37,384 nt of DNA from Candidatus Nitrosocosmicus agrestis (GTDB lineage Archaea; Thermoproteota; Nitrososphaeria; Nitrososphaerales; Nitrososphaeraceae): assembly GCF_008389435.1 (NCBI RefSeq), contig NZ_VUYS01000026.1:1-37384 (forward strand). The letters are read 5' to 3'. Made by a program: the position numbers and the translations under genes. The notes beneath the pieces are model-generated. The model was not told the origin of the DNA. It did not search any database and worked only from the letters and a program-made list of their open reading frames with translations. Shown here in pieces: positions 1 to 2,356 of this stretch. Position 1 is the first letter of the stretch. Each line of letters opens with the position of its first letter.

Positions 1-74
1 AAGGATAGGCCTGAAAAGTACAAATGCAACCCATAGTAAACATACTTTGAAGGTGTTTTATTTCTGGTAAACAT
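1..74 (-). CDS. Transposase N-terminus, IS6-like (partial at window edge)
   Basis: The start codon ATG lies at 74-72 on the minus strand, 52 bases inside the IS end, exactly where the transposase starts in the copy at 11899. The visible 24 codons read MFTRNKTPSKYVYYGLHLYF and continue SGLS; 18 of 24 residues match the other copy. The frame is open as far as the window reaches. The catalytic DDE part is outside, so activity cannot be judged. The family assignment rests on the element at 11847-12526. Confidence 0.75.
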   Translation of the reverse strand, partial: MFTRNKTPSKYVYYGLHLYFSGLS

Positions 75-126
75 AAAGGAGATAAAGCATCTTCAATCTA
101 TAAGAATTCCTTAAATGAACAGAGCC
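1..126 (-). mobile_element. IS6-like insertion sequence, terminal part (cut by window edge)
   Basis: The last 11 bases (116-126) are TGAACAGAGCC, the same terminal inverted repeat that bounds the complete IS at 11847-12526. Read on the minus strand, all 126 bases align without gaps to the first 126 bases of that element, with roughly four in five bases matching. It is therefore a diverged sister copy in opposite orientation. The rest of the element lies left of the window, so intactness and target duplication cannot be judged. Confidence 0.85.
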
Positions 127-743: not shown

Positions 744-1331
744 TTACCTAGGAATATATCCTCTGAACTTTTCTTTATTCCGGTCTTTAACATACAATAT
801 GATTCCTACTATGAGAGCAATAATACCTGCGACAAACAAAATAACCCCTAATACCAAACCCCCAAATATTGTTAAATCAATTTCTCCGTTTTCATTTAAG
901 AACGGAAGATTACCAAAGAAGAGATAAACATTAGCTGTTTTTTTGGGGTCCAGATTTGTGATCAAGAGTTTGTAGTCTCCTATTCTGTCTGGAGTAATAG
1001 TTGTAAAGTATGTATTTTGAAAAGTCGAGTTAGATAAAATATTCCCAGCTGGATCAATCACTACCTCCATTAAAGGAATTTGTTCATTATTCGTAGCATC
1101 TATAGTGACAGATAATAATTTGCTTGTAGAATTAACGGCTATACTTGCATTGGAAGACTGTAAAGGTTCAATGTTAACCTGAGATGTTGATAAACTTGGG
1201 TTGTTTTGCACGAAAATCCCACTAAATGAAACTCCCCATGTGAAAAAGATGATTATTGAGGACAAAAATAACAATCCACTAATTATTAGAACCTTTATTC
1301 CTCTTGGCATTCTTGCAATAAAAAGAGACAT
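744..1331 (-). CDS. Membrane-anchored exported protein, unknown function
   Basis: This 195-residue protein has two membrane segments that flank one extracytoplasmic domain. The first is about residues 13-38 and the second about 153-180; the C-terminal tail is short, basic and cytoplasmic (KDRNKEKFRGYIPR). The middle domain (about 40-150) looks beta-rich, with alternating hydrophobics and several N-glycosylation sequons (NAS, NST). No catalytic motif or cysteine pair is visible. The ATG at 1331 is the natural start because the basic stretch MPRGIK precedes the first membrane segment. It is transcribed away from the structured gap at 1332-1942. Function is not recognised; a cell-surface or assembly role would fit the topology. 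Confidence 0.75.
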   Translation of the reverse strand: MSLFIARMPRGIKVLIISGLLFLSSIIIFFTWGVSFSGIFVQNNPSLSTSQVNIEPLQSSNASIAVNSTSKLLSVTIDATNNEQIPLMEVVIDPAGNILSNSTFQNTYFTTITPDRIGDYKLLITNLDPKKTANVYLFFGNLPFLNENGEIDLTIFGGLVLGVILFVAGIIALIVGIILYVKDRNKEKFRGYIPR

Positions 1332-1528
1332 TACTCAAGTATAATATGTTTATTATTATGATTGTGCGAACTAAATACGAACAAGAATTAACGAAATATA
1401 TTTTCTGTAACCAGTTCAACAATTTTTGGAACTTTATTTGGATATTGAACAACAAAATGTAAGGACATGAGTAAGTTAACTGCAGAATTAAGTATAACTT
1501 TTGACTTTTCCGTCGTACTAGGATCAGC

Positions 1529-1537
1529 ATATATAAA
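1529..1537 (+). promoter_or_regulatory. TATA box for a candidate small RNA
   Basis: ATATATAAA is one of the best TATA-box matches in the window. Its centre is at 1533, so a start site is expected near 1558-1562, exactly where the first hairpin begins. No start codon of a plausible protein lies at that distance. Confidence 0.45.
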
Positions 1538-1559
1538 CTATCATATAAATTAACAAATA

Positions 1560-1700
1560 CAACAATCGTTTCTAGTTAACGATTTGTGATTGTAGGGGTT
1601 TGGAGGCAACGTCCATAGTCTGCCTCCAAATTTCTGCAAATTTGACTTGGATGGCAGATCTCATTGGTAAAAATGCATTAATTTTGTCTTTACTTTTTGT
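1560..1700 (+). ncRNA. Candidate structured small RNA
   Basis: Two hairpins follow a TATA box at the expected distance. Hairpin 1 pairs 1562-1570 with 1578-1587 (9 bp, one bulged U, 7-base loop). Hairpin 2 pairs 1590-1608 with 1621-1639: 19 uninterrupted pairs, of which four are G.U, around a 12-base loop. The G.U pairs exist only in RNA read from the plus strand; the opposite strand would have C/A mismatches. A T-rich stretch at 1681-1707 could end the transcript. No C/D boxes, H/ACA signature, tRNA, 5S, SRP or RNase P features were recognised. The 3' end is approximate, and expression is inferred from sequence only. Confidence 0.42.
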
Positions 1701-1942
1701 AATTTTCATTCATTATTCTTCTTTAAGATCCTTTCTTTGTTAGGCTTAATTTTATGACAATCACTAATATTTGTAAATCCGAAATTATTATAATCTCACA
1801 GTCTTTCTTTAATAGTACAAGAGAATGCTGTACGAAATAATAAATCAAAAAAGTGCGATCACATGTTTGCAAAGTTTTGTATTTGTTAATAGTTCAGAAT
1901 TCTTTATTAGACTTGAAAGTGATTATACATTTGCATCCTATT

Positions 1943-2356
1943 ATGCCAGAATTACAAAGAGAGGGACTAAATGGTATGAACCTAAGTAAAAAGAAGTTTG
2001 ATTTTAAATCTACCTATGAATTTATTCTTGGTTTAGATGAAAAAATCCGTTTTGTCGGCATAATTAATGATTTAGGTAGACTAGTGTATGGTGGAATGAG
2101 ACCCGGAGTGATTTCGTTAGAAAACGAGACTGAATCGGTCAAAATGTACATGGAATTTGCCTTGATTTCAAAACTGCATACGGATTTTGACTCAAAATTA
2201 GGAGAAGTGCTTTATTCAATGACCGTGAGAAAAAAAATCAAAATGCTTTCTTTTCCAGTTTTGGATCACCTTATTCGGTTATCACTTGAGACAGACGCCG
2301 ATCATGAAAGAATAATTGCAAACATACTAGCTTATCTTAAAAAAATTCAAGAATAA
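1943..2356 (+). CDS. Small soluble protein resembling a thaumarchaeal roadblock-like (DUF6659-type) family
   Basis: The protein is 137 residues from ATG 1943; a second ATG at 1976 gives 126 residues and is equally possible. The frame is open further upstream but that part does not look coding. The core reads as an alternating strand/helix protein with the segment GLDEKIRFVGIINDLGRLVY followed by GGMRPGV, and a late segment with LETDADHERII. This pattern recalls small profilin/roadblock-like proteins that are multiplied in soil ammonia-oxidising archaea, often placed near signalling or transcription genes. The family call is from memory of the motif, not from a search. No membrane segment, metal site or catalytic motif is seen, and its neighbours give no functional clue. 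Confidence 0.65.
   Translation: MPELQREGLNGMNLSKKKFDFKSTYEFILGLDEKIRFVGIINDLGRLVYGGMRPGVISLENETESVKMYMEFALISKLHTDFDSKLGEVLYSMTVRKKIKMLSFPVLDHLIRLSLETDADHERIIANILAYLKKIQE

Follow-up and report, generated by a model that had tools for sequence, protein, structure and literature searches.

Does a short intergenic stretch in Candidatus Nitrosocosmicus agrestis, lying between two divergent genes, encode a structured RNA that has so far gone unrecognised and is driven by a promoter of its own, and what might such an RNA do? The locus stands near the start of a contig of which 37,384 nt were analysed (hereafter the window), and it was compared with the other genomes of the genus, labelled G001 to G014, G000 being the present one. 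No published regulatory sRNA from ammonia-oxidising Thaumarchaeota was found in the open-access literature. According to a review that leaves Thaumarchaeota unmentioned, the functions of archaeal sRNAs are still poorly understood (PMC5867862), and small or non-coding RNAs are absent from the main text of two Nitrosocosmicus genome and transcriptome papers (PMC11559005, PMC12448741). The analysis yields a covariation-supported RNA family with exact coordinates and defined sister genes, and it points to candidates for the regulator site and the target. The family can soon be checked, because published transcriptomes exist for a cultured relative, Nitrosocosmicus franklandianus (PMC12448741).

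Architecture and fold of the locus

The features of the locus and of its sister genes are collected in Table 1. The TATA box, the two hairpins, the 19 uninterrupted pairs of the second (1590-1608 with 1621-1639), its four G.U pairs and its 12-nt loop (ACGTCCATAGTC, 1609-1620) were all recovered at the coordinates given in the original prediction. Hairpin 1 pairs 1564-1570 with 1578-1584. A conserved CTAT directly follows the TATA box. The box upstream of it reads TGATCA in most relatives, with a gap of 3-4 nt to the TATA box, and may be an operator or a specialised BRE.

Table 1. Positions of the hairpin RNA, its neighbours and its sister genes (window coordinates unless a genome is named)
Feature	Position	Strand	Basis or remark
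Upstream box GGATCA	1521..1526	+	GATCA invariant in 10/10 homologues
TATA box ATATATAAA	1529..1537	+	sequence and alignment of 10 promoters
Predicted transcription start	1556..1562	+	inferred from archaeal TATA-to-start spacing
Hairpin 1 (AATCGTT / AACGATT; 7 bp, 7-nt loop)	1564..1584	+	fold
Main hairpin (hairpin 2; 19 bp, 4 G.U, 12-nt loop)	1590..1639	+	fold, covariation
Loop core TCCATAGTC, proposed pairing region	1612..1620	+	TCCATAGT invariant in 10 genomes
T-rich stretch, terminator candidate of the original prediction	1681..1707	+	not conserved; 3' end uncertain
Flanking gene A, divergent	744..1331	-	195 aa, predicted membrane segments, no Pfam family, conserved neighbour
Downstream DUF6659 gene	1943..2356 (start 1943 or 1976)	+	conserved neighbour
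Copy of the present RNA, G004	C1:126584-126710	-	
Sister gene, this genome	G000:C13:22794		
Sister genes, G004	C1:1844132 and 2290697		
Tandem partner of the first G004 sister gene (1844132)	G004 1844321		
Sister genes, G006	C1:2531566 and 2953309		
Sister gene, G012	C52:5732		

The RNA from 1555 to 1710 folds with a free energy of -42.9 kcal/mol (z = -4.2), and none of 200 shuffled sequences was equally stable. The G.U pairs had been taken to mark the transcribed strand, and the fold energies agree: the main hairpin reaches -28.2 kcal/mol on the plus strand versus -16.0 kcal/mol on the minus strand. Through such pairs, the plus strand is also clearly better folded in most genomes with a homologue. 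Stem length is less telling. A 19-pair stem appeared in one of ten dinucleotide shuffles of the AT-rich 37-kb window and a second such stem is present at 47-96, so the stem alone lies within chance expectation. The hairpin is nevertheless far beyond chance, because its structure and loop are conserved in nine relatives.

The second hairpin of the window (47-96; TTGAAGGTGTTTTATTTCT / GGTAAACATAAA / GGAGATAAAGCATCTTCAA) likewise has 19 pairs and a 12-nt loop, with G.U pairs favouring the plus strand. It lies so close to the contig end that any promoter would be cut off; a CCATAGTAA sequence stands upstream at about 31-40. In six relatives, the region upstream of the orthologous gene gave no such hairpin. 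Two protein families near the locus are multicopy. DUF6659 proteins (1976-2356 and paralogues) occur in 5-15 copies per genome in this genus and a close relative. A small predicted secreted protein at 317-562 (81 aa, SNFLSGNNINFQSQHNHGHNVLGQSD tail, no Pfam family) belongs to a very large paralogous family, matched 86 times in this genome and 12-91 times in the genomes of relatives.

Conservation and covariation among relatives

A DNA BLAST of 1500-1720 against 40 relatives returned chance AT-rich matches only and no repeat copies. Homologues were reached solely via the flanking genes, gene A and DUF6659, which also lie next to each other elsewhere in the genus. The gap between them holds a hairpin in G004, G005, G006, G008, G011, G012, G013 and G014, and in G009 a homologous hairpin lies upstream of DUF6659 with gene A several kb away. 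The stem sequences of these nine differ from the present one and the loop core, TCCATAGT, is the same. When aligned from the promoter, all ten loci share GATCA, TATA, CTWT or GTWT, a short hairpin and a long hairpin, with the promoter consensus K-GATCA-N3/4-TATA. In the host and its nine relatives, the folded shape and the exposed loop have been preserved and the rest of the RNA sequence has changed.

A covariance model was built from the promoter and both hairpins. As the original prediction had proposed, it was used in a search, which gave one strong copy each in 10 of the 15 genus genomes (E 1e-10 to 1e-19). The family and order searches, of 70 and 250 genomes in all, added no clear match, the large searches having been run with stricter filters that may lose weak matches. 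Since the other five genus genomes are without a detected copy, the hairpin RNA appears, by this search, to be confined to one clade of Candidatus Nitrosocosmicus. In three of the five (G001, G003, G007) the flanking genes are only 90-230 nt apart; in G010 DUF6659 is present, with no neighbour or motif detected, and G002, whose assembly is incomplete, is without both orthologues.

The compensatory changes that had been suggested as a test of the stem were found. Across the ten genomes, 92.8% of main-stem cells are paired, and 5 of the 14 pairs show double changes. In the whole alignment 88.4-88.7% of cells are paired versus 82% with shuffled partners, and sliding the 3' side by 1-3 columns lowers the value to 35-51%. 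Double-change cells numbered 15, with 5 expected, and the covariation score exceeded that of every slid register and was reached by none of 500 shuffles. Hairpin 1 occupies the same place in relatives with another sequence (81% of cells paired); its general form is kept and its register varies between sub-clades. Together with the box and TATA conserved in ten genomes, the covariation upholds the predicted RNA, structured, not recognised before and with a promoter of its own.

These results bear on the reading of the locus as a chance inverted repeat, or the decayed palindrome of a mobile element, with no RNA function. The AT-rich window could by itself supply a 19-pair stem, as the shuffles indicated, but promoter, place, structure and loop are conserved in ten genomes with covariation, and there are no repeat copies. 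Covariation and synteny refute this reading, which we regard as hardly credible.

Conservation ends with the main hairpin, as no sequence conservation was seen 3' of it among the ten genomes. The T-rich stretch had been put forward as a terminator, and here the original prediction fared badly, with T-run positions varying among genomes. The same stretch would represent hydrophobic codons if the transcript served a 30-residue membrane peptide (ORF 1651-1743, MADLIGKNALILSLLFVIFIHYSSLRSFLC) and the hairpin were its leader. This ORF begins 11 nt past the hairpin and encodes a plausible membrane segment; however, no homologue exists at the syntenic loci of other genomes, the best foreign matches (E 0.1) lie elsewhere, and the missing conservation 3' of the hairpin largely refutes the peptide, leaving it very improbable.

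Sister hairpin genes with the same promoter type

Weak matches of the covariance model led to loci with the same promoter and other hairpins. This recurrence of promoter and architecture, elsewhere in this genome and in relatives, was absent from the original prediction. A pattern of the promoter alone gave 21 matches in 20 genomes, of which 9 were the present RNA and 12 were non-homologous; G001, G003, G007, G010 and 5 outgroup genomes had none. Among the 20 genomes scanned, the box plus TATA pattern was restricted to this genus. A strong hairpin followed in 6 of the 12 non-homologous matches versus 1.3-1.5% of control windows (binomial P about 1e-8). It starts 64-91 nt past the box in five cases and 112 nt in one, the present RNA having 66-69 nt. 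The loops of the sister hairpins measure 10-33 nt and are unrelated. In G004, the three best matches of a promoter matrix within the 2.0 Mb (70%) scanned were the three hairpin genes; as the matrix was trained on those genes, the informative part is the clean gap below them, with nothing further down. From these comparisons, the present RNA is one member of a small family of hairpin-RNA genes with a regulated-looking promoter.

A further promoter match, L208 (G005:C105:3341), has a 10-bp hairpin (TACCTTACCT / AGGTAAGGTG, 30-nt loop) at +37, in a stable fold. It is possibly another family member with shorter spacing.

The neighbours of the sister genes suggest a link with signalling genes. A response regulator lies near both G004 sister loci and one G012 locus (the G012 protein being judged by eye), and the sister hairpin genes L120, L121, L207 and L119 stand near small response regulators or a weakly DUF6659-like protein. 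Proposed members of the set are often found beside signalling genes, counting both response regulators and DUF6659 proteins.

The sister genes also help to weigh the strongest rival explanation, in which the hairpins are a cis-acting element, riboswitch-like or protein-binding, in a long 5' leader of the DUF6659 mRNA. Strand and downstream gene are constant in 10/10 genomes, the G009 element has stayed with DUF6659 despite the several kb to gene A, and in G006 a gene weakly similar to DUF6659 follows ~115 nt downstream of a sister element, all as such a leader would have it. Against this, an unconserved spacer of 300-520 nt precedes the DUF6659 gene, which in this genome possibly has a TATA box of its own (TTTATTAG, about 1911-1918), and sister elements stand upstream of an O-methyltransferase, of a PLP-dependent enzyme or of no nearby same-strand gene. 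We consider a DUF6659 leader unlikely.

Class, proposed mode of action and a candidate target

No Rfam family (Rfam 15) was matched by covariance model above its gathering score and no conserved protein starts at the locus, in keeping with the original prediction, which recognised no known RNA class and saw no plausible protein start there. Archaeal C/D-box and H/ACA guide RNAs are likewise small and structured with an exposed guide sequence, and both were rejected as assignments. The C box (RUGAUGA) is missing from 10/10 members and there is no C/D pairing; the long stem is continuous or nearly so, with no pseudouridylation pocket and no consistent ACA box. The hairpin terminates neither flanking gene, because the locus sits between two divergent genes, both of which lead away from the element; an intrinsic terminator was rejected accordingly. 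A pseudoknot between the loop and downstream sequence (GTCCATAGTC with GACTTGGAT at 1644-1652) was also rejected, being absent in relatives and relying on a short linker to span the 19-bp stem.

Three traits of an archaeal intergenic sRNA were found: an intergenic promoter of its own, no conserved ORF and a conserved secondary structure. The locus very probably encodes a genuine regulatory RNA and belongs to a few sister genes with the same type of switch, and as far as could be found the RNA gene was previously undescribed. In Methanosarcina mazei, sRNA162 is likewise intergenic, with conserved stem-loops and a distribution limited to close relatives, and an exposed part of it pairs across a ribosome-binding site, with repression of translation as the most likely effect (PMC3510493). 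That pairing uses a single-stranded linker between stem-loops, whereas the region proposed here is the apical loop of a long stem (PMC3510493). No sequence relation between sRNA162 and the Nitrosocosmicus RNA is known, and the target of the latter is only a candidate. Haloferax volcanii s479 and sRNA132 are also archaeal intergenic sRNAs tied to mRNA targets; s479, seemingly matured by Cas6, has a crRNA-like handle, and the putative target of sRNA132 is a phosphate-transporter operon, whereas the accessible parts of these reports describe no layout of promoter box and hairpin common to sister genes (PMC8155600, PMC6560208).

We favour, as the probable reading, a free-standing gene on the plus strand for a small non-coding RNA that belongs to a GATCA-switched set and acts in trans through pairing of its loop with mRNA. 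Promoter, fold, covariation, loop conservation, synteny, restricted distribution and sister genes come from comparison of genomes. From them we infer an RNA of roughly 85-150 nt, whose transcription would run from its own promoter between the predicted start and an end past the main hairpin. A regulator or a dedicated TFB would act at the GATCA box and switch the set of RNAs on. Each RNA would then act in trans and offer its loop for base pairing with an mRNA, most likely over the translation start, so that initiation would be blocked. Base pairing is suggested because a free-standing RNA carries an invariant exposed loop, and the loop is a plausible candidate for a guide or antisense region.

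The loop might instead be a binding site for a protein, the RNA serving as a decoy or scaffold. An invariant core on a freely varying stem would be expected equally in that case, and the sister loops are without detectable long complementarity to mRNAs: a longest-match search with four G004 loops, three of them sister loops, over 2.0 Mb of that genome gave no complementarity above that of shuffled loops. However, the loops of sisters that share promoter and layout are unrelated, so that a common binder would have to ignore the loop, and we find this explanation doubtful.

The leading target candidate for the trans-acting RNA is the start codon of a GHKL-ATPase (PF13589) gene, a suggestive lead that we would sooner doubt than accept. 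Read as its reverse complement, TGACTATGGA, the loop includes a start codon, and this sequence falls on the start codon of the orthologous GHKL ATPase gene in G008, G005, G009, G012 and G013, with up to 14 contiguous pairing bases in G008 and G009. Compared with 1615 gene starts of G004, the single genome that served as background throughout, none was as good as the GHKL duplex in five genomes, and 1, 4, 11 and 21 were as good in four more. In this genome the duplex is weak, equalled by 149 of the 1615. The base before the GHKL ATG differs in G000, G004 and G006 with no matching change in the loop, and the pairing is interrupted. Column-permuted loops equalled the joint energy with some gene in 5 of 169 trials, and the flanks of the site are conserved even where a genome is without the RNA. 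Orthologous TGACTATGGA sites were compared in the fully listed genomes, covering about half of the sites in ten genomes. Two clusters of TGACTATGGA, one in a signal-peptide-like and one in a kinase-like protein (judged by eye), were discarded, as they lie at internal coding positions.

A wider version, in which one to four such genes found per genome form a small paralogous sRNA regulon under one GATCA-TATA promoter type, each loop being a replaceable antisense 'head' against the start codons of near-leaderless mRNAs, is offered tentatively, as a possibility we do not expect to hold in full.

The GHKL start region itself varies among the genomes. At L177-L191 it reads TTGACTATGGAATTA and has two in-frame start codons, TTG and ATG; in genomes without the hairpin RNA it is present in the TTG version only (TTGACATTAGAA and similar).
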